A stretch of 39,987 bases of DNA from an uncultured Bacteroidota bacterium (GTDB lineage: Bacteria; Bacteroidota; Bacteroidia; Chitinophagales; LD1), in contig CAISWS010000370.1 of assembly GCA_903889265.1 (NCBI GenBank), positions 1 to 39,987 of the forward strand, written 5' to 3'. Of this stretch, positions 1-20,900 are shown in pieces. The notes under the pieces are model-generated. The model did not search any database, had not been told where the DNA came from, and was given only the letters and a program-made list of their open reading frames with translations. The translations under genes were made by a program, and so were the position numbers. How positions within the stretch are numbered: position 1 is the stretch's first letter; each line of letters begins with the position of its first letter.

Positions 1-3000
1 GTATGCCTGCTTAACGAACCCGGGAATTTGGCTGCATCAATCTGCGCATCAAAAGTATCTGTTGCCGCGCTGTTAAACGCAACGGTTGTTTGGTCAAGCA
101 TACCGGTAGTGCTGTTGGCAGCTACTATATTCAGCTGGTTTGCATTTTGTGCAAAGAAGGCCAGTGCCGTCCTTACGCGGTCCGTTGCATTCATAGTAAA
201 GGCAGCTGAACCGCCTACACTGGTTTTATGCACCATAAAAGCCTGGAACGGTGCAATGGTTGCATCATTACCAATAAGGCCCGGCTGATACGAGCCCGCA
301 TAATTTCCATCGGTATTCCAAATCTGCACCTGGTTATCAAAACCGGCAGGTACCGTAGTTATGTTAAGGGTAGCCAGGTAAGGATTTGAAACCAGCTGCC
401 ATCCCGAACTTTCGGTATGGTTTTGCATGGTAGTATTGGTCCATCCGCTGTTGGTTAATCCAGTGATGGTGTAGCTTTGATTTAAGTTAGCTGCACCATG
501 CAATGTTAAAACACCTGAATCTGTTTTGGCTACAGAATAGCCTTCACCGTTTTGCACGTTTCCGCTGGTTTCAACTTTCCATTGTTCCAAACCGCAACTT
601 GATCCGGCTGATTCATGGAGGCTGAACACCGTTCCGTAAGGAGAGCCATATGCAATTTCTTGCTCATTACAGGCGGGGTCGTAAACATATCCCTGGGTTC
701 CACTGGCGCCAAATTGTGCAAGCGACGGTGAATTTACCGGACTGCCTATATAGTGCTGGCTGAATGTATTGGAGGTTGCATAGTAACGTTCGGCGAAAAT
801 ATTACCACTAAGCGTACCTCCGAATCCTGAGCTGAAGTTATCAATGATAGCAACACTATCAACAGCAGTACTCTTAAAGGTTAGGGTGCCTTTGTTTACA
901 TCAAAATTGCCTGAAACCAGATCCATGGCAGTGTATATATCAATGGCTGAAGCGGAGTCCATACTAATACCCACACTGTTATTTGTAAGTAGTTCCTGCA
1001 TTTGGGTATATCCGCTTATAGTTTGCAAATAACTGCCGTTTAATACTACAATTCCTGAGCCGTTAATTGTTGCTGCTGCACCGGTGCCACCGGTCCAGTT
1101 TTTACAAACTCTAAGGTTGGCTGAAAGTGTTAACGTGGCACTGCTGTTTATCTGCACATTACCTACCTGAACAACCGTACTGATAACCGGTGATGTGGTT
1201 GTGTTTGGTATTACCACATCCACGGCACAATCATTTGGCCCACCAATAGGTGCCGTTGGCGACCAGTTATTAGGATCGGTCCAACTGGTACTGCTGGTTC
1301 CTGTCCAGGTATAAGATGCAGTGGTAGCTATTACCACATCTGTAGTGGCAGTTGCTGTGCATCCAAGTGCCGTTGTGGCAGTAACGGTATAATTGCCTGC
1401 CATAGCCAGCGAGTCGGCCTGAAAATTAAGCGATTGTCCGTTGCCTGAATAGTTACCCGGGCCTGACCATTCATAACCCGTAGCACTGGCGGAAGTAGCT
1501 GAAATTGCGATTGTCTGTCCTATTACATACGGGCCCGTATTTGACGCGGTTGCAGAGGTTAAAGCATTTACCGTTACGTTGGTGGTAAATGAATTAATTG
1601 AACCGCAACTGGCATCGGTTACTGAACAATGATACCCATCGTTGGCGGTTAAATTCCCCGGGGCATAGGTACTTGCCGTTGCTCCGCTAATGCTGCCTGC
1701 ATTGTTAAACCATTGGTAAGTATATGCACCTGAACCCCCGTTGGCTGACAGCACAAAAGTTCCGGGAGATGCACCGTAACAAATATTTGTGGAGCCACCG
1801 CTAATGATAGCGGTTAAAGAACTGTAAACGGTTGTGACGGTTGTGTTTGAATTGGTAGTTCCACAGCTTGCATCGGTTACCGCGCAATGATAACTATCGG
1901 ATGTTGTCAAATTACCCGGCGCGTATGTGCTTGCAGTCGCTCCATTGATGATGCCGGTATTGTTATACCACTGATAAGTATAGCTGGCCGACCCACCGGA
2001 TGCTGTGGTTGTAAAGGTTCCCGGTGGCGTGTTGTAGCAAAGTGGTGTGGTTCCGCCACTGTTTATTGCCGTAAGATCAGCATATACTGTTATTGAAGTA
2101 GTTGTAGTATTGGCAGTTCCGCAACTTCCACTGCTTACAGCACAGTAGTAGGTATCTGAACTTGTTAAGTTTCCGGGGGCGTAAGTATTTGCTGTGGCCC
2201 CGCTTACAAATCCCGAGCTGTTATACCATTGATAAGTATAGCTACCGGCTCCTCCGTTTCCAATAGCTGTTATTGTTCCGGGCGCACTGTTGTAGCATGT
2301 GGGCGATACTCCACCACTTATACCGGCTGTAAGACTGGCATTAACAGTTATGTTGGTAACGGCACTATTAGCAGTTCCGCAGCTTCCGCTCGTAATCGCG
2401 CAATGGAATGCATCTGAAGTTGACAAATTACCAGGAGCGTAAGTACTTGCAGTTGCCCCGCTCACGCTTCCTGCGCTGTTGTACCACTGATAGGTATAAC
2501 TTAATGTCCCGCCGTTTCCGGTTGCTGTAAATGTTCCTGGTGTACTGTTATAGCAAACCGGCGATGTTCCTCCACTGATAGTGGCCGTAAGGTTGGCATC
2601 TGTTGTTATATTAGTGTTGGAAGTGCTGACAGTTCCGCAAGTTCCGCTGGTAACAGAGCAATGATAGGAATCGGAGGTAGTTAGGTTTCCCGGTGCATAG
2701 GTATTGCCCGTAGCCCCACTTATGCTGTCAGAGGAGTTATACCATTGATAGGTATAGCTGCCTGTTCCGCCGTTGCCGGTAACACTAAGTGTTCCCGGTG
2801 AGGTATTGTAGCATACCGGCGAGGTACCGCCGCTGATACTTGCCGTAAGGTTAGCATCAACAGTAATAGCCGTTGTTGAAGTGTTTACTGTGCCACAGCT
2901 TCCGCTTGTAATGGCGCAGTGATAAGCATCAGATGCGTTCATACTACCCGGTGCATACGTACTGGCTGTTGCGCCGCCTACAGAACCGGAAGTGTTATAC

Positions 3001-6000
3001 CACTGATAACTATATGAGCCTGTTCCTCCGGAACCAGTAGCTGTAAATGCCCCCGGCGACGAGTTAAAGCATATAGGACTGATACCTCCGCTTATGGATG
3101 CCGTAAGATTGGCATCAACAAGTATGTTGGTGTTGGAGGTTGCAACAGTTCCGCAACTTCCGCTGGTTACTGAACAACGATAGGCGTCGGATGCGGTTAT
3201 ATTTCCTGGTGTATATGAACTTGCTGTGGCACCACTGATGCTTCCAGATCCATTATACCACTGGTAAGTGTAAGTTCCGGAGCCGCCAATACCAGTAGCA
3301 GTAAATGTACCGGGCGTGCTGTTATAGCAAACCGGCGATGTACCGCCGCTGATGGTGGCTGTAAGATTTGCATCTACAGTAACCGGGGTTGTAGAAGTTG
3401 TTGCAGTTCCGCAGCTTCCGCTTGTTACTGAACAGTAATAAGAATCAGAAGTAGTTAAATTTCCTGGTGTATATGCGCTGCTTGTAGCGCCACTTACTAA
3501 TCCCGAACTGCTATACCACTGGTAAGTATAGGTACCGTTACCACCATTTCCGGTAGCGGTAAATGTTCCGGGAGATGAATTGTAGCAAATAGGTGAGGTG
3601 CCTCCGCTAATGGCGGCTGTAAGGTTGGCATCTACTGATATACCGGTAGTTGAAGTTGCAACTGTACCGCAGCCTCCGCTGCTAACCGAACAATAATAAG
3701 AGTCCGATGCAGTTAAATTACCCGGTGTATAAGTGCTTGCCGTTGCACCGGGTACAGAGCCGGAGGTTTTATACCATTGATATGTGTAAGTACCGGTTCC
3801 GCCACTGCCTGTGGCAGTAAATGTTCCCGGCGATGTATTGTAACAAACCGGTGATGTTCCACCGCCTATAGTGGCAGCCAGGTTTGCGTCCACTGTAATT
3901 GGCGCATTTGAAGTCGCAGCAGTTCCGCAGCTTCCACTGGTTACTGAACAATAATAAGCATCAGAAATAGTTATGTTGCCCGGGGTATAGGTGCTTCCTG
4001 TAGCCCCGCTTACACTGCCCCCACCATTGTACCATTGGTAAGTATACGAGCCTGTTCCACCATTACCGGTAGCAGTAAATGTACCTGGTGAAGTATTGTA
4101 ACAAATGGGTGATGTACCCCCACTTATACTGGCCGTAAGGTTAGCATCTACTGTAACCGGTGAGCTTGAAGTTGCAACAGTTCCACAGGTTCCGCTGGTA
4201 ACGGAACAATAGTAAGCATCAGAAGCGGTTATATTACCCGGAGCGAAGGTACTTGTTGTAGCTCCGCTAACGCTTCCTCCTGCGTTATACCACTGATATG
4301 TATATGAACCTGTACCTCCGCTTCCGGTTGCAGTAAATGTTCCGGGTGCTGTGTTGTAGCATATAGGCGTAGTTCCACCGCTAATAGCGGCTGTAAGGTT
4401 TGCATCTACTGTAATTGCAACGGTTGATGTGTTTACCGACCCGCAGGTACCGCCGGTTACATTGCAGTAATAAGTATTTGAGGCTGTTAAATTACCCGGT
4501 GCATATGTGCTGGCCGTAGCACCGGATACAGAGCCTGAGCTGTTATACCATTGATAGGTATAAGTACCGGATCCACCGCTGGCGGTTGTTTTAATAGTAC
4601 CAGGTGCTGTATTATAACAAATGGGTGAGGTACCACCACTTATGGCGGCTGTTAAGTTGGCATGTACAGTAATGTTTTTAACCGGGGTGTTTACCGAACC
4701 GCAGCTACCGCTGGTTACGCTGCAGTAAAATGCGTTGGATGCGGTTAACAAACCTGCAGTATAAGTGCTGCTGGTTGCCCCTGCTATAGAACCAGAACCG
4801 GTAAACCACTGATAAACGTAAGTACCGGTACCTCCGGCTGCTGTTGCAGTAAATGTACCTGGCGAGGTGTTATAACAGATAGGAGTTGTTCCACCGCTTA
4901 TGGCAGCGGTTAGGTTAGCATCAACAGTAATGTTGGTTGCAGTAGTGCTTAGCACACCACATCCCGCAACATCAGTAACCGTGCAGTTGTAGGCGTTAGA
5001 TGCTGTTAAAAGGCCGGGATTAAAAGTGTTGCTGGTTGCGCCACTTATTAAACCCGAATTATTATACCACTGATAGCTGAAACTGCCTGAACCACCGCTT
5101 CCGGCAGCTGTAAATGTTCCGGGTGAGGTATTGTAACATATGGGTGAAGTGCCGCCACTCTGGCTGGCGGTAGGTACGGTATAAACCTGCACGGTTTGTG
5201 TATTTGAAGTAGCAGGAGCACAACCCGAGCCTGAGAACGTTGCTACAATCTCATAAAACAAAGTTCCTGAAGCTGATGTTGGCGGTGTATAAGAAGTAGA
5301 TGTAGCGCCCGGAATTGTTACAGGAGAGCTAAACCCGGCAGTAGTTGAACTATACCATTGATATGTAGCAGGTATAACCACACTCAGATTAGAGGTAAGC
5401 ACTACAGAACCATTTAGGCACACATTGGCTCCTCCGGTGGCAGTTTCCTGCGGACCGGTAGTTAACACTGTTACCTGCACGTCATTGGCTGCCCATTGAC
5501 CAGTGCCGCACACAGGGCTTGCCGGAGTTACAAAGCAGGCAAAGGTTATATTAGAGGATGCCCCGAACGCTGTAAAACTGCCGGTGTTATATCCTGTTCC
5601 AAGGGTTGCATCGCACGCCGTCCACCCCGATGTACTGCTTCCGGTTGGAGCTGCAATTAAGCCGCTTTGATAATACCACTGGTAAGTGAATGAACCTGAA
5701 CTTCCGGCCGCACCGCTTGCTACCAGCGGGTTACCGCTGTTAGGTGCAACGTTATCGCATACTGTTTGGGTTAAGCCACCTGAAGCCGAGACAGCACCAT
5801 AACTGCTAACAGGGGGCTCTACCGTGACAGATGTAGTGCTTGTGGAAGTTGTACCGCAACCGGCACCACTGGTAACTGAACAGTAGTAAGAGTTGCTGCT
5901 GGTTAGCGCCGGAGCCGTATACGTGCTGGCGGTGGCTCCGCCAATGGATGTTGAACTGTTATACCATTGATAGGTGTAACTTCCATTACCGCCGGCGCCG

Positions 6001-9000
6001 GAAGCAGTAAATGTTCCCGGTGAAACGTTGTAACAAGAAGGCGAGCTTCCACCGTTGATAGTTGCGGTGAGCAAAGGATATACAGTTATAGCAGAAGCCG
6101 TAGTATTTACGGTGCCACAACCGCCACTGGTTACTGCGCAGTAATAAGTAGTGGAAGCGGTAATATTTCCCGGGTTGCAGGTGCTGCTTGTTGCACCCCC
6201 AATTGAAGCCACTCCGGTATACCACTGATAGCTGTAACTACCAGTTCCACCGCTGCCCGTAGCCGTAAATATACCTGGTGAAGAGTTGTAACAGATAGGT
6301 GTGCTGCCGGCATTTTGGCTGGCAGATAAGTTGCCGTAAACCGTAATGGTTGAGCCGCTGCTGTTAACGGTTCCGCAACTTCCGCTGGTTACCGCGCAAT
6401 ATATTGTTGAAGTACTGGTAAGGTTGCCCGGTGCATAAGTACTGGTAGTTATACCGCTTGATAAACTGTTTACGTACCACAGATAAGTATAAGCACCCGG
6501 ACCACCGCTTGCGGTTACGCTAAATGTACCCGGTGCAGTGTTATAACAAAGCGGAGATGTTCCACCACTTTGGCTGGCGGATAAATTTCCATAAACCGTG
6601 GCTGTGTAAGGCGTAGTGTTAACAGTGCCGCAGCCACCGCTGGTAACTGCACAATAAATGGTTGAAGATGCCGTAAGGTTACCCGGCGAATAAGTATTGG
6701 TTGTAACACCTGTAGATGAAGCATTATTATACCATAAGTAGGTATAAGAACCTGTTCCACCGCTGCCGCTTGCTGTAAACGCGGTTGGCGCGGTATTGTA
6801 GCATAAAGGCGAACTACCACCGATTTGACTGGCAGTTAAGTTTGCATCTACAGTAACAGTATAAGCAGAAGTATTAGCCGTTCCGCAACTGCCACTTGTA
6901 ACTGCACAATATACTGTTGAAGTTGCACTAAGATTACCTGGTGAATAGGTGCTGCTGGTTACACCGGTAGCAGCACTGTTCAGATACCACAAATACGTGT
7001 ATGAACCTGTTCCCCCGCTGCCCGTTGCGGTAAAGGCCGTTGGTGTTGTGTTATAGCATATTGGAGAACTGCCGCCACTGAGGCCGGCAGTTAAGTTGCC
7101 ATCTACGGTAACTGTATATCCCGTGGTATTTACCGTTCCGCAACTACCGCTTGTAACTGCGCAATAAATGGTTGAAGTTGCAGTAAGGTTACCTGGAGAA
7201 TAGGTATTGGTTGTTACACCTGTTGATACCGCATTTTTATACCACAGATAGGTATATGAACCTGTTCCACCACTGCCGCTCGCAGTAAATGCTGTTGGCG
7301 TGCTATTGTAACAAATTGGTGAACTTCCACCGCTTTGGCTGGAAGTTAAGTTGCCATCTACGTTAACCGTAAAAGGCGAAGTGTTAACAGTTCCACAAGG
7401 ACCGCTTGTTACAGCGCAATAAATGGTTGAGGTGGAAGTGAGATTACCCGGCGCATAGGTGCTACTTGAAATTCCTGTTGATGAGCCATTGAGATACCAC
7501 AAGTAGGTATAACTACCACTTCCACCGCTTCCGTTTGCCGTAAGTGTACCAGGTGATGTATTGTAACATACCGGCGATGTACCACCACTTAAACTGGCAG
7601 ATAAAGAAGGCACAACCGTAATGTTCACCGGGTTTGTAACTACTGCCGGACATACTCCGTTTGAAACATTAGCTCGTACATATAAGATGGATGCACCGTT
7701 TAAGCTGGAAGTCCAGTTATAAGGGTTTGTAGTACCCCATGCCCCGGAATATGATCCGGAGGTAGTATTCCATTGATATTCGAAATAATTAAAGGTACCG
7801 GTTTGGCCGGAAAGAGAATAATTTACGTTTCCTCCATTGCACACCGTAGTACCGGTGGCCGGAGTCTGCGTTATAGTTCCTGCCACGGATGGAGCATCAA
7901 TAGTTACAATTACAACATTTGAAGTTGCGGCAGGGCAAACTCCGTTGGTAACAGTTACATCCACTTGTAACTGATTGTAAACTCCATTTATACCACTTCC
8001 CCAGTTTTGAGTGGTACTGCCACCATTGCCCCAATTGTTCCAGCCAGAACCTACACCACCTGCACTCCAGTTGTAATTCCAATTGGTTATAGTGCCAGTA
8101 TACCCCGACAATGAATAGGCAACGTTGCTGCCGCTACAGATATGTCCGCCGGTACCGGGTGTCTGAGTCAATGTCCCTCCATTCGATTGCGCACTTACAG
8201 TCAACGTTGGGCTGGTTGATGAAGTACTGTTTACACCGTTGGCAGAGGCTGTAACGGTAAAGTTACCGGAATTTGCTGCGGAAGGCGAAACTATAGTAAC
8301 AGATTCCGAAGTTGTGGATGCTGATGGGCTGAAAGTAGGCGAACCGGGGCCTGACCAATTATAAGTGTAGAAAGCAGTTGCAGTAGAACCCGTAGTAGCC
8401 CCGGACTGCACCGTGCCGTTGCACGAACTACAGGCTGCACTACCAGTGGCGCTGTTAGGCACCGTGCCCGATCCATCCATTTTGTAATAAGCAACCAGGT
8501 TATTCCAATTAGGGTCGTTGCTACTGGTGCTAGCCTGGGTCATTAAATTGCTGATAGCGTTTTGAGATAAGGCAACGTTGTAAATCTTAGCTTCATCCAC
8601 AGTTCCCATATCCTGTCCGCCGCCCTGATAGTTACCTATAGCACAAACATTATCATTAACAATCTGTGTTTGCGAGTGGCCCGCTAACACACCATCTACA
8701 TAAAAATAAGTTACACCGCCTGTGCCTACAGCAGCTATGTGATGCCACCCGGTAGATAGTGTGGAAAGGTCCAGAGATTGGGGCAGGGCAGTGGTACCTG
8801 AAATATCAACCCCATTCACTCCGCTGGCAGCAGAGCAAGGGTAAAAGCCATTGTTGTAAGTGCCCAATAATAAACCTGCGTTGGTGGCCCCTTGGGTGCG
8901 TTCAACTATAATGGTGTGTTCCGTTTCTCCCCGGAACAGCGTATTCCAATATGGATTGGCAGGTAAAGGGAATTTTACCCAGGCCATTTCGGTCCAGTTG

Positions 9001-12000
9001 GTACCTATGGCAACGTTGGATACAAAAGCGCTGGAACCAAGCATCAGGTAATTTGAAGTATTAGTACCCGTGGTTAAAGCATATCCTGCAGGTGCCATCC
9101 CTGAAGTGGTCAAGGTTACATTAGTACCTGCACAATCTGTTGACGGCCCTGCAACACTTGGTCCGGGAAAAGTACTTACTGAAGCTGTTGACGTTGTGCT
9201 TGCCGTGTTGGCAGCCTGGTCGCTGGCTATAAAACCTTCGGTTGTTGCAGAGGAGAATGTTTGAAATGCCTGCGCCGAAGCAAGTGGGCATGGTAAATTG
9301 TATTTGGCTGCCAGGTATCCTTCCACAACCTGACGTTGTGCGGTACTTAATATAGTATTGTAGTAAATTATTTCGGCAACATCACCTGTGGAGTATTCTC
9401 CGGCCGGGCTGTAACCGCAGCAACCAGTGCCTCCAAGGCCTATATTACCTGGCCCGTTGGGCGAGCCTGGAGTACCCGTTGCCAGTAACTGCCCGTAATC
9501 GTATAAACTGGTACCATTACCATTGGTACTATTACTGGTAACCTCATTCATGTGAGGTAGAACATCTGGTGTTGAATTTATTGCACCATATGAATACGGC
9601 CCTGCTATCCAGCCATTACAGTATAACTGTTCCTGCGACCCACCCCAATCGCCAAATAACCAGTTGGTACTTGAAGAGGTGCATAAACGTCCATTGGAAC
9701 CGCCGTTTAATCTCTGTACCACAAACATGGTATAGTTTGAATTACCTCCACCATCAACACTGTTTACCAGGTTCAGGTATTCGTTGGCAGTACCAAACGT
9801 AATAACAGGGTAACCGTTAAACGACGAGGATGATGCTGTACGCTGCGGCCTTTGACTGTAAGTGGAATTATAAAATTTATTTCCATTGCCGCTAATATCC
9901 CTCCATTCAGCTACATTTCCGTTTCCGTCCTTCACAACCCCAGCATCTCCCTTACACCAAAGTTTTAAATTACCTGCTACTGCTGACAAAGGCCCCGAAC
10001 CGGATGCCAGATTAAAACTACCTACCGCATCGCCGCAAGCATCAGAAGCGCCTGGTGTGCCAAAAGTTTCGGCAGCAGCACCGCCATTGTTAGGGCTGTT
10101 ATTGGTTGAAATTGCAGCAGGTGCAGTTACGGATGGTGTTGCTGTTGTGGTAGCTACGGTGTATGGTCCGGCCTGTGCAGTTGCACCGCAGTACGATGTT
10201 GCATAAACATAATAGCTTTGGTCGCCACCTATAGTTAATGGGTTTGTTTGTCCTAAGTTGTTGCCGCTTCCATTTGCGCCGGTATACCAATCCCAGTTCT
10301 GTCCAATAAAGCTGTTTGCAGTAATAGTAGTGGTGCCTTCTCCACAAACCGGGCTGGCAGGTGTGCTGGATCCAATCTGGGCAAATCCTGACCCGAAGTT
10401 AACCTGGTAGTTAACCCAGCCAAAATTGTTCTGTCCACAATTATCCCCCGTATAAACCGATATAGCGTTAGTATAGTTGGATTGCGGGAATGAAGTAGTT
10501 GGAGTTACGGTCCAGGTTACAGTGTTGGTGTAACCGTTAAATGATTGCGTAGCACCATTCAGTGTAATTACACTATTCCCATAACTTGGTGCCTGACCAA
10601 CCCAGCCCACCCCACTGCTTACAGGGTGCTGGTTGATGGTATAACCCAGTGCATTTAATTCTGCCTGAGTGTAATTCCAGGCAAAATAACCGCCGTAATT
10701 ACCCGCGTTGGTTCCCTGCAGGTTTATAAGGGCCAATAATCCATAATCATTACCTCCATCGGAGCCCCCCCATGTGTTATTGCTTGAGCTTGCGGCACTG
10801 GCCGTAATTGTGTATTGATTAGATCCGTTGGTTACCCAGCAACTATTATTTGTTGAAGCCGCTGTAGGTATTGGGCCCGAAGTTTCGCGATATGTAAGGG
10901 TAGCGCTTGTGCCCGGCCAGGCTGGTGGGCAGGATGTTCCGTTATATGCAACCACCAGGTTCCAGCCTGCTCCGTATCCATCCTGACCATTGTTAGGTGT
11001 AATACTCATGCTATTGGTAGCCTCGGATTGGTAAACCCATGAACTGCCGTTGTATTGGTACCATTGAAGTGCAGGTGTGGTCCAACCGCTTCCGCCTGCC
11101 AGGCTGAAAGTATAAGTTTGTCCTGATATTCCATCCCATTCTGCTTCTTCCTGGCTTCCAAGTTGTAATGCCTGGGTAGTAATGGTACAATAGCCGCTAC
11201 CGGTATGTGCATAACACGCTCCATAGGCACCAACTCCGGCATTATAAGAGCCGCCGCCACCGCCCATACCATAATACGAGCCGCCGCCACCGCCACCATA
11301 ACCACCGCCGCCACCGCCGCCGGTATAGTATTCCCAATCGCCACCACCACCACCGCCATAACCTCCGGACCCTCCGGAACCAATACCAGCACCACCGGCA
11401 CCACCATTTTGATATGAACTACCGCCATAAGCAACCGGGTAACCAGAGCAACTTGGCGGTGTTCCGCCATTACCAACCAGGCCACCACCCCCTGCACCCG
11501 TACCGCAGCCGGTGTAAGTGCTCTCGTAGTTACCGCCATTGGGACCTGCTCCACCATTACCAACCCCATAACCATCCACTCCAAATACACCCCCATTTCC
11601 TGAAGTGCTGGTAGTAGCATTTAACCAACTGCAACCATAATTGTAGCCAGCACTATAGCCTCCATACCAACCACCGCCGCCACCGCCTGAAATAATTAAA
11701 GGATTAGGACTTACACCGGTGTTAGTGGTACAAACAAAAGTTCCACCACCTCCGCCACCGCTAAGGCCCGAGCCTCCCTGGCCACCTACCATTATATAAA
11801 GCACCTCTCCCGGGGTTACTGCAAAAGTTCCCACCTCATAGGCTCCATAACCTCCGGGGCCACCATTGCCACTTCCACCTTGTGCGCCCCAGGTTTGTAT
11901 TTGAACAGAGCTTACCCCTGCCGGTACTGTAAAAGTTTGCATGCCACCGGTATATCCGTAATTGTAAACACCGCCGGATGAGCAACCAATCATATTACCA

Positions 12001-12227
12001 CCTATGTAGAAACCGCCTCCCCAACCATTGGTATTGGTATAACAATATTGCGCCTTAACGGGCGTTATACCTGTAAGAAAAAAAAGATATAGCGCCAGTA
12101 AGACATACTTGCTGAACGCAGGGTTAAAGAACCCATCATGGTTTTTCGGAAAAAAGTTCTTCGGCGAACTTTGTAACGAGGGGGTTAACAAAAACAACTG
12201 ATCAGGAGTAGGGGTTCCCATAAGCAT
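1..12227 (-). CDS. Giant Ig-like-repeat surface adhesin, T9SS cargo type (3' end beyond window)
   Basis: One frame stays open from the ATG at 12227 to the left edge, at least 4,075 codons; an in-frame TAA lies directly before this ATG. Order in the protein: a long N-region and signal peptide (hydrophobic YVLLALYLFFLTG, cleavage near residue 63 after VKA); a glycine-rich domain to about residue 410 starting with TFTVPAGVSSVQIQTWGAQGG-like sequence; a concanavalin-like domain (about 742-980, with LKLWCKGDAG and EIIYYNTILS); a LamG-like domain (about 1026-1250, with GWHHIAAV and FYVDG); divergent Ig-like domains; 7 regular 86-residue repeats; two irregular ones; 14 more regular repeats; a segment with TSWTDPNNWSP; and a region with GWQLVSNPY and APFQAFMV, which in Bacteroidota usually precedes a T9SS sorting domain. 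That sorting domain should lie beyond the left edge. I infer a secreted or cell-surface adhesin; the ligand is unknown. The frame is continuous and not a pseudogene within the window. Confidence 0.93.
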   Translation of the reverse strand, partial: MLMGTPTPDQLFLLTPSLQSSPKNFFPKNHDGFFNPAFSKYVLLALYLFFLTGITPVKAQYCYTNTNGWGGGFYIGGNMIGCSSGGVYNYGYTGGMQTFTVPAGVSSVQIQTWGAQGGSGNGGPGGYGAYEVGTFAVTPGEVLYIMVGGQGGSGLSGGGGGGTFVCTTNTGVSPNPLIISGGGGGGWYGGYSAGYNYGCSWLNATTSTSGNGGVFGVDGYGVGNGGAGPNGGNYESTYTGCGTGAGGGGLVGNGGTPPSCSGYPVAYGGSSYQNGGAGGAGIGSGGSGGYGGGGGGDWEYYTGGGGGGGYGGGGGGSYYGMGGGGGSYNAGVGAYGACYAHTGSGYCTITTQALQLGSQEEAEWDGISGQTYTFSLAGGSGWTTPALQWYQYNGSSWVYQSEATNSMSITPNNGQDGYGAGWNLVVAYNGTSCPPAWPGTSATLTYRETSGPIPTAASTNNSCWVTNGSNQYTITASAASSSNNTWGGSDGGNDYGLLALINLQGTNAGNYGGYFAWNYTQAELNALGYTINQHPVSSGVGWVGQAPSYGNSVITLNGATQSFNGYTNTVTWTVTPTTSFPQSNYTNAISVYTGDNCGQNNFGWVNYQVNFGSGFAQIGSSTPASPVCGEGTTTITANSFIGQNWDWYTGANGSGNNLGQTNPLTIGGDQSYYVYATSYCGATAQAGPYTVATTTATPSVTAPAAISTNNSPNNGGAAAETFGTPGASDACGDAVGSFNLASGSGPLSAVAGNLKLWCKGDAGVVKDGNGNVAEWRDISGNGNKFYNSTYSQRPQRTASSSSFNGYPVITFGTANEYLNLVNSVDGGGNSNYTMFVVQRLNGGSNGRLCTSSSTNWLFGDWGGSQEQLYCNGWIAGPYSYGAINSTPDVLPHMNEVTSNSTNGNGTSLYDYGQLLATGTPGSPNGPGNIGLGGTGCCGYSPAGEYSTGDVAEIIYYNTILSTAQRQVVEGYLAAKYNLPCPLASAQAFQTFSSATTEGFIASDQAANTASTTSTASVSTFPGPSVAGPSTDCAGTNVTLTTSGMAPAGYALTTGTNTSNYLMLGSSAFVSNVAIGTNWTEMAWVKFPLPANPYWNTLFRGETEHTIIVERTQGATNAGLLLGTYNNGFYPCSAASGVNGVDISGTTALPQSLDLSTLSTGWHHIAAVGTGGVTYFYVDGVLAGHSQTQIVNDNVCAIGNYQGGGQDMGTVDEAKIYNVALSQNAISNLMTQASTSSNDPNWNNLVAYYKMDGSGTVPNSATGSAACSSCNGTVQSGATTGSTATAFYTYNWSGPGSPTFSPSASTTSESVTIVSPSAANSGNFTVTASANGVNSTSSTSPTLTVSAQSNGGTLTQTPGTGGHICSGSNVAYSLSGYTGTITNWNYNWSAGGVGSGWNNWGNGGSTTQNWGSGINGVYNQLQVDVTVTNGVCPAATSNVVIVTIDAPSVAGTITQTPATGTTVCNGGNVNYSLSGQTGTFNYFEYQWNTTSGSYSGAWGTTNPYNWTSSLNGASILYVRANVSNGVCPAVVTNPVNITVVPSLSASLSGGTSPVCYNTSPGTLTANGSGGSGSYTYLWYLNGSSTGISSSTYAPGNLTSTSTIYCAVTSGPCGTVNTSPFTVNVDGNLTSSQSGGSSPICYNSTPTAFTASGSGGTGSYTYLWYKNAVSTGVTTNTYSPGNLTATSTIYCAVTSGSCGTVNTTGYTVTVDGNLTAGLSGGSSPICYNTTPTAFTATGSGGTGSYTYLWYLNSAATGVTSSTYSPGNLSATSTVYCAVTSGSCGTANTSAYTVTVDANLTASQIGGSSPLCYNTAPTAFTASGSGGTGSYTYLWYNNASSTGVTTNTYSPGNLTASSTIYCAVTSGGCGTVNTTPYTATVYGNLSASQSGGTSPLCYNTAPGTFSVTASGGPGAYTYLWYVNSLSSGITTSTYAPGNLTSTSTIYCAVTSGSCGTVNSSGSTITVYGNLSASQNAGSTPICYNSSPGIFTATGSGGTGSYSYQWYTGVASIGGATSSTCNPGNITASTTYYCAVTSGGCGTVNTTASAITVYPLLTATINGGSSPSCYNVSPGTFTASGAGGNGSYTYQWYNSSTSIGGATASTYTAPALTSSNSYYCSVTSGAGCGTTSTSTTSVTVEPPVSSYGAVSASGGLTQTVCDNVAPNSGNPLVASGAAGSSGSFTYQWYYQSGLIAAPTGSSTSGWTACDATLGTGYNTGSFTAFGASSNITFACFVTPASPVCGTGQWAANDVQVTVLTTGPQETATGGANVCLNGSVVLTSNLSVVIPATYQWYSSTTAGFSSPVTIPGATSTSYTPPTSASGTLFYEIVATFSGSGCAPATSNTQTVQVYTVPTASQSGGTSPICYNTSPGTFTAAGSGGSGSFSYQWYNNSGLISGATSNTFNPGLLTASNAYNCTVTDVAGCGVLSTTATNITVDANLTAAISGGTTPICYNTSPGTFTATAAGGTGTYVYQWFTGSGSIAGATSSTYTAGLLTASNAFYCSVTSGSCGSVNTPVKNITVHANLTAAISGGTSPICYNTAPGTIKTTASGGSGTYTYQWYNSSGSVSGATASTYAPGNLTASNTYYCNVTGGTCGSVNTSTVAITVDANLTAAISGGTTPICYNTAPGTFTATGSGGTGSYTYQWYNAGGSVSGATTSTFAPGNITASDAYYCSVTSGTCGTVATSSSPVTVDANLTASISGGTSPICYNTSPGTFTATGNGGTGSYTYQWYNGGGSVSGATGSTYTPGNITISDAYYCSVTSGSCGTAATSNAPITVDANLAATIGGGTSPVCYNTSPGTFTATGSGGTGTYTYQWYKTSGSVPGATASTYTPGNLTASDSYYCSVSSGGCGTVATSTTGISVDANLTAAISGGTSPICYNSSPGTFTATGNGGNGTYTYQWYSSSGLVSGATSSAYTPGNLTTSDSYYCSVTSGSCGTATTSTTPVTVDANLTATISGGTSPVCYNSTPGTFTATGIGGSGTYTYQWYNGSGSISGATASSYTPGNITASDAYRCSVTSGSCGTVATSNTNILVDANLTASISGGISPICFNSSPGAFTATGSGGTGSYSYQWYNTSGSVGGATASTYAPGSMNASDAYHCAITSGSCGTVNTSTTAITVDANLTASISGGTSPVCYNTSPGTLSVTGNGGTGSYTYQWYNSSDSISGATGNTYAPGNLTTSDSYHCSVTSGTCGTVSTSNTNITTDANLTATISGGTSPVCYNSTPGTFTATGNGGTLSYTYQWYNSAGSVSGATASTYAPGNLSTSDAFHCAITSGSCGTANSAVTNITVNASLTAGISGGVSPTCYNSAPGTITAIGNGGAGSYTYQWYNSSGFVSGATANTYAPGNLTSSDTYYCAVSSGSCGTANTTTTSITVYADLTAINSGGTTPLCYNTPPGTFTTTASGGSASYTYQWYNNTGIINGATASTYAPGNLTTSDSYHCAVTDASCGTTNSNTTVTTVYSSLTAIISGGSTNICYGASPGTFVLSANGGSGAYTYQWFNNAGSISGATASTYAPGNLTANDGYHCSVTDASCGSINSFTTNVTVNALTSATASNTGPYVIGQTIAISATSASATGYEWSGPGNYSGNGQSLNFQADSLAMAGNYTVTATTALGCTATATTDVVIATTASYTWTGTSSTSWTDPNNWSPTAPIGGPNDCAVDVVIPNTTTSPVISTVVQVGNVQINSSATLTLSANLRVCKNWTGGTGAAATINGSGIVVLNGSYLQTISGYTQMQELLTNNSVGISMDSASAIDIYTAMDLVSGNFDVNKGTLTFKSTAVDSVAIIDNFSSGFGGTLSGNIFAERYYATSNTFSQHYIGSPVNSPSLAQFGASGTQGYVYDPACNEQEIAYGSPYGTVFSLHESAGSSCGLEQWKVETSGNVQNGEGYSVAKTDSGVLTLHGAANLNQSYTITGLTNSGWTNTTMQNHTESSGWQLVSNPYLATLNITTVPAGFDNQVQIWNTDGNYAGSYQPGLIGNDATIAPFQAFMVHKTSVGGSAAFTMNATDRVRTALAFFAQNANQLNIVAANSTTGMLDQTTVAFNSAATDTFDAQIDAAKFPGSLSRH
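1600..5160 (-). repeat. Block of 14 tandem ~258-bp (86-aa) Ig-like repeats
   Basis: A YQWY motif recurs near + strand positions 1711, 1968, 2224, 2484, 2740, 3000, 3256, 3515, 3773, 4030, 4289, 4547, 4805 and 5064, a period of about 258 bp. A typical unit reads SGGTSPVCYNTSPGT, then GSYTYQWY, then TSDSYYCSVTSG and CGT. The first Cys, the Trp and the Tyr-x-Cys are arranged as in an immunoglobulin-fold domain (B-strand Cys, C-strand Trp, F-strand YxC), and there is a third Cys about 7 residues further on. The copies are clearly diverged at the DNA level, so the array is not a recent duplication. Confidence 0.93.
5880..7600 (-). repeat. Block of 7 tandem ~258-bp Ig-like repeats (N-terminal block)
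   Basis: The same 86-residue unit recurs with its central Trp motif near 5961, 6219, 6476, 6733, 6989, 7244 and 7497. The five copies nearest the N-terminus carry YLWY where the other block has YQWY, and several have TTVYCAVTSG-like sequence before the last Cys pair. This block is therefore a recognisable subfamily. It is separated from the 14-copy block by two irregular Ig-like domains (about 5160-5880) of different length. Confidence 0.9.
10990..12000 (-). other. Glycine-rich domain-coding stretch of the giant adhesin
   Basis: The + strand shows dense runs of (ccg/cca)cc, for example around 11250-11410 and 11670-11770. In the coding frame on the minus strand these are Gly-Gly runs with interspersed Tyr, Ser and Asn. 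The domain begins with a TFTVPAG entry sequence seen in many secreted glycine-rich Bacteroidota proteins. The low-complexity DNA creates long open frames on both strands (Arg/His-rich or Ala/Val-rich); I read these as shadows. Confidence 0.85.
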
Positions 12228-12602: not shown

Positions 12603-13307
12603 CTATTTGACTGGGGTGACAAACTTTACTGCGGCGTTTCTGCCATCGGCAGTACTAAGTTGACAAAAGTAAATTCCCAGAGGTAGCTGTGGTAGCGGAA
12701 TATCGGTAATAAAGTCCGAGGTTATTTCCAGTAATTTTTGCCCAAGGTCGTTATAAATTCTTACCTGCTTAAAGTTTATTTTGGCATCTGTTGTTTTTAT
12801 TAAAATATTGTTGTTTACAACGGCATATGAAAAAGGGATTTCTTTTTCATTACTGATTCCGCTGGGGTCCACTACGTTAATGGGGATGATAATAGAGTCT
12901 GAAATTAGTTGGCTGCAAATGGGCCAAACCACCACTACATCGGGCCCCGGCTTAAAATATGGCTGATTAATTGTAACACTGAATATAGCCGGAACCGTTT
13001 CATGCCCACCCAGAGAAACCGTATCTCCGCTATAAGGTGGTTTATCAAATAAGCCCGTATTGCTTAGTATTTCAGTGTTGTTATGGAGGCCGAAGTTGAT
13101 AACTCCCATAAAAGGAAGCGAGTCGAAATTGGTTACTTCTGCATTGATGGTAATTGTATAACCCAGAGATACATCATTGTTAACGGTATCAAGGGTATAA
13201 TTTACCAAAGTAACCCCAAGGCCGTTACCGGCCGCGTTTGTTGCCAGTGCTGCAGGCAATAAAAGAAGTAAGAAAAAAACTATTTTAAGGGTTTGTTTTG
13301 CTGTCAT
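12603..13307 (-). CDS. Small secreted protein with T9SS type A sorting domain
   Basis: 234 residues. A classical signal peptide (KQTLKIVFFLLLLLPAALA, cleavage near residue 22-25) is followed by a beta-rich domain of about 130 residues with CARDB-like character (YTITINAEVTNF, then GGHETVPAIFSVTI), and a C-terminal sorting domain of about 75 residues (VRIYNDLGQKLLEI, then LPLGIYFCQLS and VKFVTP). The last part matches the known T9SS C-terminal domain pattern, so the protein is expected to cross the outer membrane and be attached or released. The function of the middle domain is not recognised. It is divergent from the 494-aa gene, with which it shares a short intergenic region carrying a good promoter. 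Confidence 0.88.
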   Translation of the reverse strand: MTAKQTLKIVFFLLLLLPAALATNAAGNGLGVTLVNYTLDTVNNDVSLGYTITINAEVTNFDSLPFMGVINFGLHNNTEILSNTGLFDKPPYSGDTVSLGGHETVPAIFSVTINQPYFKPGPDVVVVWPICSQLISDSIIIPINVVDPSGISNEKEIPFSYAVVNNNILIKTTDAKINFKQVRIYNDLGQKLLEITSDFITDIPLPQLPLGIYFCQLSTADGRNAAVKFVTPVK

Positions 13308-13409: not shown

Positions 13410-14876
13410 GTTATTGCCGTAATGAACAAAGAAGAAGTACGTAACTTCAAACTTTGGCTTAACAGTACCAATGCCTCCAGTGCGCGGAAAGATATTCTTC
13501 TTTTCGATTACATCCGGAAATCGGCTGATAAGTATGATGAAGACTTCATTTTTAAGAAGTTGTACCCGGATGACGATAAAAACTCGTTTTACCGGTTAAA
13601 GAACCGGCTGCTTGAGGATATTGGATATAACCTTTCGCTGCTGCATTTTAGTAAGCACGAATCCAATAATTTATACCTGTTGCTTGGGTTGTATAATATT
13701 TTTATTTCGCGTAACGAACCTGAAATTGCCTTGTTTTATCTGAAGAAGGCAGAAAAGCGTGCATTACTGATAGAGAATTTTGAATTACTGGATATAATAT
13801 ACGCTAATTTTGTAAAGCTATCTTACGACCTTACCGGCATCAACCCGGAGGTTTATATCCGGCACCGGAAAGAAAATGCCGTAAAGCTGGATAAAATCCG
13901 CGAAACCGACCAGGCACTGGCCGCAGTAACTTACCGGTTAAAATTATCGCAAAACTATGGTAAGCAGGATGCAGGCCTTTTAAAGCTCCTGGACTCCACC
14001 ATTAAGGAATTTGCGGCTGACGAATCTATCTGGAAGAGTAAAACATTTCAAACCAGGGTTTTCAGGGCGGTTAGCCAGATACTTATTCAAAACCACAATT
14101 TTGTTGAACTTGAAAAGTTTATGCTGGCAACTTATCAGCGGTTTTTAGATCAGAAGTGGTTCGATAAATCGAACCACGAAACTAAAATACAGATGCTGAT
14201 TTATATTATCAACTCCACCTTTAAAAATCACAAATTCAGGGAAAGCCTTGACTATGCCGAGGCGCTGGGGGAGGAGTTGAGTGCATATAATGCAATGCTT
14301 TATAAAAAATTTGTGTTCTTCTACTATAACGCCCTGGTAATTAATTACGCCAAAACTGACCTGGCCCGTGGCGTTAAGGCACTTGACGAGGCCGAGCGCG
14401 AAATGAAGGACATAAAAAACAGCTATTACGATTTTTTTATACTGCTTAATAAGGCTACGCTTTTATTTTACCAGCGCAAAAACAATGAGGCCATTAAAAA
14501 CCTGGTAAAACTTTATCTGAACGATCATTACACAAAAACCGATGTTTCATTTAAGGTTAAAATAGCGGTAGCCGAATGCATTATGCAATACGAATCAGGT
14601 GATGGGGAGAGTGCTTTAAAACGCGTTGAACAGGTAAAGAAACACTTTAAAGAGCAGCTGGCCACCGATGACTTTAAGCGCGAGTGGTTTGTATTAAAGC
14701 TTTTGCCCGATTTAATGGGAATAAAGGAGCCTGAAGCCAATTCAAAGCTGCACACACAGGTAACCAGGTTTGTAAAGACAGCGGTAGCGGAATCAGTAGA
14801 AGATGGCGAGGTATTACGCTACAGGGCTTGGCTGGCCCCCAAAGTAGGCATAGAATCTGATGTTTTGGGCGAGTAA
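13392..14876 (+). CDS. Helical (TPR-like) cytoplasmic protein of unknown function
   Basis: 494 residues with no signal peptide and no membrane segment. The N-terminal 80 residues contain NKEEVRNFKLWLN and FYRLKNRLLEDI, a pattern I know only from uncharacterised Bacteroidota proteins. The rest is predicted almost entirely helical, with paired-helix spacing that resembles degenerate tetratricopeptide repeats (for example FYYNALVINYAKTDLARG and FFILLNKATLLFYQRKNNEA). The ATG at 13392 follows a T/A-rich leader; a second Met (MNKEE, residue 11) is an alternative start. A TATCTTCG box with TTG 17 nt upstream (13339-13366) could be its promoter. It lies 109 nt before the giant PKD protein on the same strand and may be co-transcribed with it. 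The function is unknown. Confidence 0.85.
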   Translation: MQLLNKVIAVMNKEEVRNFKLWLNSTNASSARKDILLFDYIRKSADKYDEDFIFKKLYPDDDKNSFYRLKNRLLEDIGYNLSLLHFSKHESNNLYLLLGLYNIFISRNEPEIALFYLKKAEKRALLIENFELLDIIYANFVKLSYDLTGINPEVYIRHRKENAVKLDKIRETDQALAAVTYRLKLSQNYGKQDAGLLKLLDSTIKEFAADESIWKSKTFQTRVFRAVSQILIQNHNFVELEKFMLATYQRFLDQKWFDKSNHETKIQMLIYIINSTFKNHKFRESLDYAEALGEELSAYNAMLYKKFVFFYYNALVINYAKTDLARGVKALDEAEREMKDIKNSYYDFFILLNKATLLFYQRKNNEAIKNLVKLYLNDHYTKTDVSFKVKIAVAECIMQYESGDGESALKRVEQVKKHFKEQLATDDFKREWFVLKLLPDLMGIKEPEANSKLHTQVTRFVKTAVAESVEDGEVLRYRAWLAPKVGIESDVLGE

Positions 14877-14985
14877 GAATCTGTTTAGGTTTTTGATACC
14901 CGGATACAACTTAAACGTATCTTTAACCAATCATAACAGGCAAAAGATAGTCGCAATTATTTTAAGCCATACTAAAAATAAAGCT

Positions 14986-17900
14986 ATGAAGTCAATTAAA
15001 CACCTTTTTATCCTGATGCTGGCGGTTTGCTTTTCATCATTAGTGAAAGCACAATGCACTGCTGCGTTTACCGATACCGTTATCGGTAATAATATTACGG
15101 TAAATGCCACTGCCCAATCCGTAACCGGTTATGCCTGGTATATTGACGGAACTTTGAGTGTGGCTGCAAACCCGAATACCTCTTTTACATTTCAGAATGT
15201 GTTACCGGGTACGCACAGTATTTGTCTCTGGCTTTATGTAAATAATACTTTCTTGTGCGACACGGTTTGCAAAAATGTAACCGTTACATCCTGCGGTAGC
15301 CTTACAGCTTATTGGAACTTTACTACGCCGGTAAATGATACAGTCAGATTTGCTGCTTATGATACAATCTCTTTGGCACACCATGTTTGGAGTTTTGGCG
15401 ATGGTACAAATGCTTCGGGCACCACGGCCACGCATGTTTATTCTGCTCCCGGAACTTACACTGCCTGTTTTTACAGTTATATTCCCGGTACATCCTGCAT
15501 AGACTCTTTGTGTCGTACAGTTACCATACCTCCGGCCAGCAATGCCTGCGGAGTTGCATCGTTTACTTCTTACATTTTGAATGACTCCACTATCAGGTGT
15601 TATAGTACTTCAGCCGGTGCGGGTGATTCAAGTAGTTATGTTTGGAATGTATATAATGCCAATGGCCTGCTTGTTCAATCAAGCTCAACCGGGCATAATT
15701 CATCTTTCCTTTCGCAATCCATCCCCACAGGCACATACAAAGTTTGTCTTGATTTATATAGCGGACTGAATGTGCTTTGCGATTCATTTTGTAGTAGTGT
15801 TAGTGTGCTTCGCTGTTCAAGCTTAACTGCTTCGTACACTTATACCGCATCGGCCAACTCTGATACGCTGGTGGTAATTGCATCCACCAACAATCCTGCC
15901 GGCACCACCTACACATGGCATTTTGGCGATGGGGCCTCATCAACTGCAACTTCGGTAACACACGTTTATGCGCAGTCAGGTAATTATGTTGTAACCCTGC
16001 TTGTTGGTAATCCTGCGCTTACCTGTGTTGATACAATGTACGAAACTATAACTATTGGCAACCCGAATGCATGTGGAATTGCTTCCTTTGCATACTATGT
16101 TTTGAATGATTCTACTATCAGAGGTTATAGCAATTCCACCGGAACCAGCGATTCAAGTAGTTATGTGTGGAATATTTATGGCACCAGCGGTAATCTGATA
16201 CAATCATATTCAACCGGCCATATTAATAATTTCTTATCGGGTGGCCTTCCGATCGGTACATACAAAGTTTGTCTGGATTTATATAATGCCCAACATGTTC
16301 TTTGTGACTCAGCTTGTAACAGTATTCAGGTGCTGCGCTGTTCAAGTTTAATTGGTGCATGGCAATATGCTTCGTCTGCTACCAGCGATACTGTCAGGTT
16401 TTATGGATCAACTTCAAACCCTACCGGTACCACTTTTGCATGGACTTTTGGCGATGGTAATACCTCAAGCCTTGGAACACCCATGCATGTTTATGCTCAG
16501 GCAGGTGTATATAATGTGTGCCTGGTGGTTAGTAATCCTGCGCTTAGCTGCCGCGATACTTTTTGCCAGAGTGTAACTGTAGGAAATCCTAATGCATGTG
16601 GTACGGCCTCCTTCTATTATTATGTTCTGAACGATTCAACTATAAGAGGCTATAGCAGTTCGACCGGTACCAGCGATTCAAGTAGTTATGTTTGGAATAT
16701 ATACGGCACCAACGGTAATCTTATTCAATCATATTCAACCGGGCATACCTCATCTTTCCTGTCCGGTGCCTTGCCTGTTGGTACCTATAGGGTTTGCCTT
16801 GATTTGTATAATGCTGCGCATTCTTTTTGCGATTCCGCATGTAACAGTATTTCCATACTCAGTTGCTCAAACCTGACCGCGGCGTGGACTTATACCGCTT
16901 CTTCGGCTAATGACACCTTAAAAGTTGCCGGCTCCACAACTAATCCTTCAGGTACTACCTATAGCTGGACTTTTGGCGACGGGGCAACTTCAAGCTATGC
17001 AGGGTTTACACATGTTTATGCTCAATCCGGAGTTTATACAGTATGTCTTGTAGTTGGTAACCCTGCTCTTACATGCAGAGATACATTATGTCAAAGTATT
17101 ACTATTGGAAGCCCTAACGCATGTGGTACTGCTTCTTTTGAATACTATGTGTTGAACGATTCTACCATCAGAGGCTATAGTAATTCCACCGGCACAAGCG
17201 ATTCAAGCAGTTATGTTTGGAATATTTATGGCACCAGCGGTAATCTGATTCAGACTTACTCCACGGGACATACCAATAATTTCTTGTCCGGTGGTCTTCC
17301 GATAGGAACTTATAGGGTTTGCCTTGATTTATATAATGCCGCGCACACGTTCTGCGATTCGGCATGTAACACCATTCAGGTACTTAGGTGTTCAAGTTTA
17401 AATGCCCAGTATTTTTCTACAGTGCTTACTAACGATTCAGTTAAATTCAGTCCACCAACAAACAACCCTTCAGGCAGTACCTTTACCTGGACTTTTGGAG
17501 ACGGAACCTCTTCAACATCAACAACTGTAACGCACGTATATTCACAGGCCGGTACTTATACGGCTTGCCTTATTGTTAGTAACCCGGCCCTTACCTGTCA
17601 CGATACTCTATGCAAAAGCATTACTGCGACCGGAACTAATTGCGGAACCTTAACTGCTTACTGGAACTTCCCCACACCGGTTAATGACACCGTAAGGTTT
17701 ACAGCGTATGATACTGTCTCAGCGGCTCACCATATCTGGAGTTTTGGTGATGGAACAAACGGCTCCGGCACTTCGGTTACGCATGTTTATGCAGCCGGAG
17801 GTACTTATAACGTATGTTTTTACAGCTATATCCCTGGCACTACCTGCACTGATTCGTTCTGCCGCACAGTGGTTGTGCCGTCGAATATGGCCTGTGGTAC

Positions 17901-20900
17901 CGCTTCTTTTAGTGACTATGTATATGGCGATAGCAGCATCCATGCATTCAGCAATTCTACAGGAACTAACTCTTCAACAATTTATGCCTGGACTATTAAA
18001 GGGGCAAATGGAAATATTATTCAAACTCAAACCGGCTCCAGCTATTACATTATCAGCCAGCATTTATATCCAGGTGTTTATACGGTATGCCTTACTTTAT
18101 ATCAGGGAACTGCTTTGTGCGATTCTACCTGTAGCACCGTAGTTGTACCTTTAATTGGTGCCTGCGGAACAGCATCCTTTGGCGATACTGTTTATGCAGG
18201 TGTTGGAGGTGGGGCTATACATGCTTACACAACATCAACCAATGTTGATTCACTGTCTCAGTATAGCTGGAAAATATGGGGCCCTAACGGAGGCCTTGTG
18301 CAAACGTTTACCGGCGGTGATTTTACATCCTCAACACTAGATACCGGCACTTATACGGTTTGCCAATATATCCGTGCAACTGGTTCTACTTATATCTGCG
18401 ATTCAATTTGCAGTACTGTTGTAGTAGGAGGTGGTTCTAATCCATGCAATGGATTAACAGCTTCATGGACGCATAACCTGCAATCAAATACTACCGATTC
18501 GGTAGAATTTCATGCGGCTACTAATCCTGCTGGTGCTGGGTACTACTGGAGATTCGGCGATGGTACCTCAGGCTATGGCCAGAATATAACACATGGCTAC
18601 GCGCAAAGCGGAACTTATACTGCTTGCTTGTATGTTATCCTGTCAGGCACAAACTGCAGCGATTCAAGTTGTCAGACAATTACAATTACAACTACTACAC
18701 CTTGTCCGGTAGCGGCGTTTGGTTTGTATGTTTATAACGATAGTACGATACACGCCTTCAGCAGTTCCACCGGTACTACTGCCAATACGGTTTACGCCTG
18801 GCATGTTACCAACTCTGCGGGAGTGGTAGTTCAAACTGAAACAAGCGTTGGAACTACAGCCAGTCTTTTGAGTCATGCTTTGCCTAACGGCACTTATGAT
18901 GTGTGCCTGTTTATTTATGCTAATACCGGTACCTATTGCGATTCGGTTTGCCATACCATTACAATTGCAGATTCTGTGAATCCTTGCGGAGGCCTGAATG
19001 CTACGTTTACCGCAGCACATCTATCTAACGGCAACGTGCAGTTTACCGAGGTTGACAGCGCTGCCGGTTTAACCCATTACTGGCACTTTGGCGATGGCAC
19101 TATTGCCACCGGCCCAAATCCGGTTCATGCTTATGCCACTGCGGGTTTATATCATGTTTGCCAGTACGTATTTTATGCAGGAGCGCAATGCCTTGATTCT
19201 TTCTGCATCAACGTTCAGGCCGGTGCTTCCGGTTGCAGTGCAAACTTTAGCGCGCAAGGTTATTATCCTCCTTATAACGGCGTGCATTTTACCAACCTGT
19301 CTACTTCAAGCGATTCTATTATTTCATACCGCTGGACATTTGGCGATAGCACCTATGCTTCATTTGCAAGCGGCGACCATGTATTCCCACATAGCGGAAC
19401 CTGGTATGTATGTTTAACAATTTATGCTTCCAACGGATGTAGCAGTACTTACTGCGATTCGGTAAAAGTTAGTTACGATCCTTGTTACGGATTAAGTTCT
19501 ACTTATACTTACACTTACACATCAGGTGGCGGGGTACATTTTGCAGGTAGTACGAGCATTACCAACGCCACCAATTACTGGGCCTTTGGTGATGGAACAT
19601 CGGCAACTACGTTCGACCCAACACACTATTATACCCAGGGCGGAACTTACACAGTTTGTCATATAGTAAGCATTCCGGGTACGCTTTGTTCTGATACCAC
19701 CTGCCAGAGCGTGCAGGGGTCAGGTACCAACACCGGCTGCCAGGCAAGCTTTACTGACACAACCAGCAATACTTTAAACCAGATAATTTTCTATAACAAC
19801 TCAACCAGCAGCGACTCTGTTGTTTCCTCAGTTTGGAGCTTCGGTGATGGTACAAGTTCTACTTATCATAATACTTATCATACTTATAGCACACATGGCA
19901 CTTACTATGTATGCCTTACCATTACTTCTTTAAACGGGTGCACCAGTACGCATTGCGATTCTGTCCATGTTGGCACAACCACACCGCCGGCCTGTCATGC
20001 GTCGTTTACTTATACAGTGGATAGCTGTCAGGTAATAACTTTCACCAGCACATCGACCGGCTCACTTGATTTTCTGCGCTGGATATATGGTGATGGAACT
20101 ACTGATACCACTTATCACCCCACACACCATTACGCCCAGGGTGGGGTTTACACGGTTATCCTGCATTTTTACGGCAACGGTTGTTATAACTTTGATACGG
20201 CACAGATTACGGTTCCTGCGTGCGGAAGCAGCAACGATACCGTATGCGGATATGTGTTTGACGACCTGAATGGTAACGGAGTTCAAAATACCGGCGAACC
20301 GGGTGTTGCAAGCGCTGAAGTGCATATAGGTAGTTATGTAACCTTTACTGACTCAACCGGCCATTATGAAGTTATAGTGCCTGCGGGTACCTACACCATT
20401 TATTATTGTGCCCCGGCAGGTTATGCTTTCAGTATACCTGTATACTCGCAGCATAGTAATTCAGTAACCTGTGCCGCTTATCAGGCTGTTCAGATTGGCA
20501 GCGGTACTAACTGCGGATATAATTTTGGAATTATAGATAGCAGCGCAAGCATTTGCGGTACCGTATATTTTGATGCCAATGATAATCATGCACAAGATCC
20601 AGGTGAATCAGGTATACCGGGCGCACAGGTAACATTCAGCAGCGGCGGACAGGTTGTTTATACCTGTTATACCGATCAGTATGGCCACTATTGTGCAGTA
20701 TTAAAGGATGGTAATTATGTAATTACTGCTACCAGCACAACCTATGCAGGCGGGGTGGTTTATCCGGGTTCTATTACGGTAGCAGCCACGGGTGGCGGGG
20801 CTTTTGATAACAATAACTTTGGTATTTACGTTACACCGGCTGGTTGCGACCTTAGTATCAAAATTACACCTAACACCACCATAACACCGGGTTACCCTGC

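Follow-up and report, generated by a model that had tools for sequence, protein, structure and literature searches.

The first 12 kb of the DNA analysed here, a window of 39,987 nucleotides that comprises the whole of contig C370 from a 5.1-Mb draft genome in 527 contigs, raise the question of what protein is encoded by a single minus-strand frame that runs off the contig, and what such a protein might do. Based on analyses of the translated frame, comparisons to relatives and fold searches, we propose that the gene encodes a surface adhesin that is exported by the T9SS and carries its recognition head at the distal end, a reading that we consider probable. A giant, secreted, mosaic adhesin-like protein had already been suggested by a sequence-only reading of the locus, in agreement with the frame, the domain make-up and the presence of a T9SS in the genome.

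The frame extends from the ATG at position 12227 to base 3 and comprises 4,075 open codons without a single stop or N, with 190 and 207 stops in the other two minus-strand frames over the same stretch and 184-272 in the plus-strand frames. Given how frequent stop triplets are locally, a frame of this length would stay open by chance with a probability of about 4e-59. GC content at the second codon position exceeds that at the others in all 340-codon blocks save the last, and a frameshift is therefore unsupported; the one uninterrupted gene of more than 12 kb that had been claimed for this stretch thus stands. As base 1 of the window is the contig end, the C-terminus of the adhesin is absent from C370. 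The features of the frame are collected in Table 1.

Table 1. Features of the proposed adhesin gene, in order from the N-terminus, with positions in the window (strand in brackets).
Feature	Residues	Window positions	Basis
Start codon, N-terminal extension of about 40 residues and likely signal peptide (KYVLLALYLFFLTGITPVKA/Q)	1-59	12051..12227 (-)	Translation
N-terminal beta domain, first part, before the insert	60-87	11967..12050 (-)	Aligns to L187 N-terminus
ALK/LTK-type glycine-rich domain, inserted in the head	about 88-345	11193..11966 (-)	PDB matches, profile
N-terminal beta domain, remainder	346-460	10848..11192 (-)	Aligns to relatives' heads
Middle region, probably beta/Ig-like	461-744	9996..10847 (-)	blastp
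ConA-like lectin domain 1	745-985	9273..9995 (-)	Model and fold search
ConA-like domain 2 (Laminin_G_3)	about 1048-1290	8358..9086 (-)	PF13385
Two divergent Ig-like units	1348-1540	7608..8186 (-)	Motif TQTP.TG...C twice, weak profile match
Ig_7 array A, 7 units of 85-86 residues	1541-2143	5799..7607 (-)	PF19081, unit profile, tandem array
Two degenerate Ig-like units	2144-2350	5178..5798 (-)	Unit profile
Ig_7 array B, 14 units, mostly of 86 residues	2351-3561	1545..5177 (-)	Period of 258 bp
PKD/Ig-like linker	3562-3635	1323..1544 (-)	Resembles paralogue C306 and several relatives
Conserved pre-sorting module, includes SGWQLVSNPY, runs off the contig end	3636-4075	3..1322 (-)	C306 identity, alignment

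At the N-terminus, a hydrophobic stretch and an AQ site are visible, and the AQ-C cleavage-site region is common to the homologues L187, L188, L189 and L191, pointing to a likely signal peptide. Some 40 residues stand ahead of the hydrophobic signal stretch (window positions 12110-12227, minus strand); translation may in fact begin at a later codon, or this may be a signal peptide of the extended kind. The beta domain that follows is split. Its first 28 residues (60-87) align to L187 with a score of 73, where 300 shuffles reached no more than 63, and their alignments to L188, L189 and L191 are not significant against shuffles; residues 346-460 align to the heads of four relatives with scores of 151-220, where the shuffle maxima are 70-80. 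Since the glycine-rich domain between the two parts is absent from the homologous heads, in which the flanking sequence joins up, it is most simply explained as an insert near the mature N-terminus.

The only PDB sequence matches of this insert are to ALK/LTK receptor chains, at E 0.03-0.12, with an alignment that spans the beta core as well as a second piece, GGGGGTFVCTTNTGVSPNPLIISGGGGGGWYGG, placed against a 31-letter stretch of ALK. A members-only profile, built from eight bacterial relatives that match PF12810 with the window's own protein left out, scores the domain at 30.9 bits, while 200 shuffled versions of equal composition reach -53.5 at best, and a stretch of 75 residues agrees to 57% with L158, a relative that passes the PF12810 cut-off. 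Pfam's own PF12810 model gave no match at E 1 in hmmscan and none here in the genome search, composition corrections weighing strongly on a sequence so rich in glycine. From these matches we assign the insert to the glycine-rich domains of the ALK/LTK receptor type. The ‘glycine-rich head’ described previously is accordingly real as to composition, yet imprecise, as the ALK/LTK-type domain inserted in the head had been missed. An AF2 model of the glycine-rich head from five sequences was set aside: its mean pLDDT is 44.9, only a short beta core reaching about 80, and Foldseek returned no match under E 0.001 with it. A PADLOC search of the head found nothing.

The same pattern of beta core and glycine stretches is found in the ALK/LTK domain (PF12810) and in phage tips (S16 gp38, Pam3 gp24). 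In Pam3 gp24, a TNF-like part and a glycine-rich part that resembles ALK form the proposed receptor-binding tip (PMC9608196). The adhesin differs in that the domain, of putative ALK/LTK-like fold, sits in a bacterial surface protein, and no receptor kinase or trimer-forming part was seen in it. It is conceivable, though doubtful, that the insert, like the variable receptor-binding tips of some phage fibres, serves as an exchangeable recognition tip on a T9SS stalk. Glycine-rich domains of this type also occur at the C-termini of three further proteins of the same genome (L194 on C272, L195 on C12 and L196 on C465), two of which begin with an N-terminus of the ‘INYQ(S/A)(V/I)VR’ type. The relative G012 has 18 PF12810 matches, and an IMG/VR contig of 134.8 kb classed as viral (L197) holds three consecutive ORFs with such domains.

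Downstream of the split beta domain, the middle region is partly common to L188 (47%) and L189 (36%) in blastp, and a Pfam scan of its residues 461-744 gave no match. It leads into two ConA-like domains, which had been proposed from the letters as concanavalin-type domains and are confirmed here, one by Pfam and one by model and fold search. Domain 1 has neither a Pfam nor a PDB sequence match; its AF2 model (pTM 0.70) finds PDB structures with Foldseek at E 2.9e-7, the matched element being a lectin-like jelly roll as it occurs in sialidases, in arabinanases and in the pilin PilC. The best VIA-align result is the C-terminal part of a trans-sialidase (residues 387-632; Z 15.7 over 196 residues, rmsd 3.1), and the ConA-like domains of the arabinanase AbnA and of a GH54 arabinofuranosidase align at Z 14.9 each. 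The model thus establishes the fold of domain 1, and ligand binding is putative; a ConA-like fold can also act as a non-binding spacer. Identity of domain 1 as a toxin or sialidase was rejected, with 10-14% sequence identity and no catalytic part; the matches to clostridial neurotoxin binding domains and sialidase folds reflect the shared lectin-like jelly roll only. Domain 2 is recognized by PF13385 over residues 1072-1226 (E 3.3e-12; 47.2 bits, gathering score 27.6). The two domains go together: both are present in six relatives of the family.

The domain order and repeat count also bear out the sequence-only reading in that lectin-like domains precede an Ig stalk with more than 20 repeats. 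PF19081 matches 23 stretches of the protein (E 2.7e-53; 178.6 bits, gathering score 27.3), and the stalk totals 21 regular units of 85-86 residues (7 + 14) and three degenerate ones. The unit profile matches the divergent region weakly at residues 1462-1538, and the degenerate units between the arrays at 2147-2208 (0.0007) and 2264-2349 (0.04). Sampled regular units are 46-84% alike, the most similar ones lying in the middle of block B, as would be expected of tandem duplication. Elsewhere in the same genome, the nearest array counts three units and belongs to a protein of 2,038 residues encoded on C58. A TetR_C_24 match on the adhesin was dismissed as an artefact, as no stretch passes alone.

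Beyond the stalk, the pre-sorting region of the GWQLVSNPY type noted earlier indeed sits at the right place. The module is present in 31 of 61 genomes and has 36 invariant columns in its alignment (A1); its range extends to Hymenobacter, Adhaeribacter and Rufibacter. A paralogue on contig C306, which matches the final 439 residues of the adhesin at 62% identity, breaks off at nearly the same point, which suggests that the alike tails of the two genes confused the assembler and that the C370 gene was cut for this reason; no other contig of the assembly shares an overlap with the left end of C370. At the end of contig C253 lies a frame of 306 residues that lacks a start, containing a PKD domain (1.5e-12) and a type A-like sorting domain, and C510 holds a second fragment of this kind. 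In relatives, the module and a C253-like tail occur in a single ORF about 35 residues apart, and the ORFs of complete close relatives extend 339-350 residues beyond the module end. From the C306 break, the C253 fragment and these ORFs, we infer that about 342 further residues, with PKD and a type A-like T9SS sorting domain, follow the end of C370, which should bring the complete protein to about 4,400 residues. The tail on C253 or C510 could, however, belong to the C306 paralogue instead.

Each of the 11 homologous tails has matches to both TIGR04183 and PF18962 (best 4.3e-6 and 1.7e-5); on the candidate C253 tail they score 21.3 bits (curated cut-off 23) and 16.1 bits (cut-off 27), respectively. 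The T9SS setting of the organism, also claimed earlier, is borne out by SprA in the same genome (TIGR04189, 2358.7 bits, cut-off 200), a GldJ-like protein (374 bits) and at least 150 Por_Secre_tail matches, and export of the giant adhesin by this route is a well-supported inference from these sequences. We note that the tail is found as separate small genes too: L019 (C348) and L020 (C386) encode stand-alone proteins of about 450 residues with their own N-terminal hydrophobic stretch, the module end and the tail, without head or stalk.

Comparison to relatives indicates how the protein was put together. A complete ORF of 2,095 residues from another species (L187, positions 1919-8203; genome G023, contig C26) shares the N-terminal beta domain, the two ConA-like domains (57 and 69% identical to those of the adhesin) and an Ig_7 stalk, here with nine stretches. 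It differs in lacking the glycine-rich insert, in its shorter stalk, and in ending with a canonical type A sorting domain (3.9e-10) in place of the pre-sorting module and PKD tail. Conversely, L087 (3,224 residues), L085 (1,968) and L081 (2,062) have the pre-sorting module, PKD and sorting domain following one another as predicted for the adhesin, behind N-terminal parts of fibronectin type III, T9SS-associated galactose-binding and PKD-like type; neither the ConA-like pair nor the Ig_7 array was found in such cassette-bearing relatives. As the module follows other heads and the same head ends canonically in L187, head, stalk and tail are exchanged independently among relatives. In the adhesin, the long tail is combined with an Ig_7 stalk and with a head that has two ConA-like domains and a glycine-rich insert. 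The architecture had been called uncommon. This was overstated, since L187 already combines head, two ConA-like domains, Ig_7 stalk and sorting domain, and since giant ORFs are common in the order, with Ig_7-like repeats matched in 139 out of 150 of its genomes, in ORFs of up to 7,209 residues. The kind of protein is known and common in the phylum; the combination is a variant with untypical tip parts, and no paper describing it was found in the open literature.

Four T9SS-type surface genes, the adhesin included, lie in the window. The largest of the others (14860-21891, plus strand) encodes a second giant T9SS-type protein of 2,343 residues with 12 PKD_4 stretches, SdrD_B-like domains, DUF7619 and a sorting domain. 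Two sorting-domain proteins are encoded on the minus strand, one of 234 residues (12603-13307) and one of 778 residues that is protease-like by eye (23001-25337). Rfam and tRNA scans of the window found nothing.

We propose that the adhesin operates as follows. The signal peptide would take the protein of about 4,400 residues across the inner membrane, and the T9SS would carry it over the outer membrane via the C-terminal sorting domain predicted beyond the contig end. With its C-terminus presumably held at the cell surface, the stalk, made up of Ig_7 domains of which 21 are regular and several divergent, would push the N-terminus outward, likely placing the beta domain with its ALK/LTK-type insert and the two ConA-like domains at the tip. 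There, these domains may bind to polymers such as glycans, be it on particles or on other cells.

Alternatively, the protein may be a gliding-motility adhesin, the T9SS/Gld motor moving the fibre while the lectin head grips the substrate. RemA of Flavobacterium johnsoniae carries a lectin domain and SprB of the same species uses a type B sorting domain; the likeness of the adhesin to the two consists of great length (SprB), a likely signal peptide, a T9SS organism and the lectin domain (RemA), and the predicted tail of the adhesin is type A-like. Both are gliding adhesins secreted by the T9SS, SprB measuring several hundred kDa (PMC10202324). The genome encodes SprA and a GldJ-like protein, in agreement with such a role, but the latter, at 374 bits, stays under its curated cut-off of 458, no gliding genes were seen next to the adhesin gene in the window, and the sorting-signal models that match the candidate tail are those of types A and C only, the SprB-type B model not being among them. 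We regard a gliding function as unlikely. It is likewise quite unlikely that this is a secreted polysaccharide-handling protein, in which the ConA-like domains would be carbohydrate-binding modules that hold polymer for enzymes produced elsewhere and the stalk a spacer: the alignments of domain 1 to AbnA and the GH54 arabinofuranosidase are compatible with this, whereas no catalytic domain was found in the 4,075 residues and no glycan-utilisation cluster lies beside the gene. Both possibilities are partly refinements of the surface-adhesin reading.

That the gene is an assembly artefact, in which two genes were joined or repeats of the array were lost or added, might be suspected of a repetitive gene in so fragmented a draft. 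The longest exact direct repeat in the gene is, however, 23 bp, and the Ig repeat copies are about 70% alike at the DNA level, which makes short-read collapse or false joining within the array unlikely; together with the single coding frame, open throughout and free of N, and with the occurrence of head and Ig_7 stalk in the complete L187 ORF, this renders an artefact very improbable.

In conclusion, the proposed surface adhesin shows, with boundaries, how the long surface proteins of Bacteroidota are assembled from exchangeable parts, namely heads, stalks and a common sorting tail of about 780 residues, and it would place an ALK/LTK-type glycine-rich domain at the tip of one of them. If the insert is a recognition module, bacterial adhesion would be linked to a fold of animal receptor kinases and phage fibre tips, and the insert would offer a small soluble piece for ligand screens. 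A bacterial adhesin, a phage fibre and an animal receptor would then share one recognition fold.
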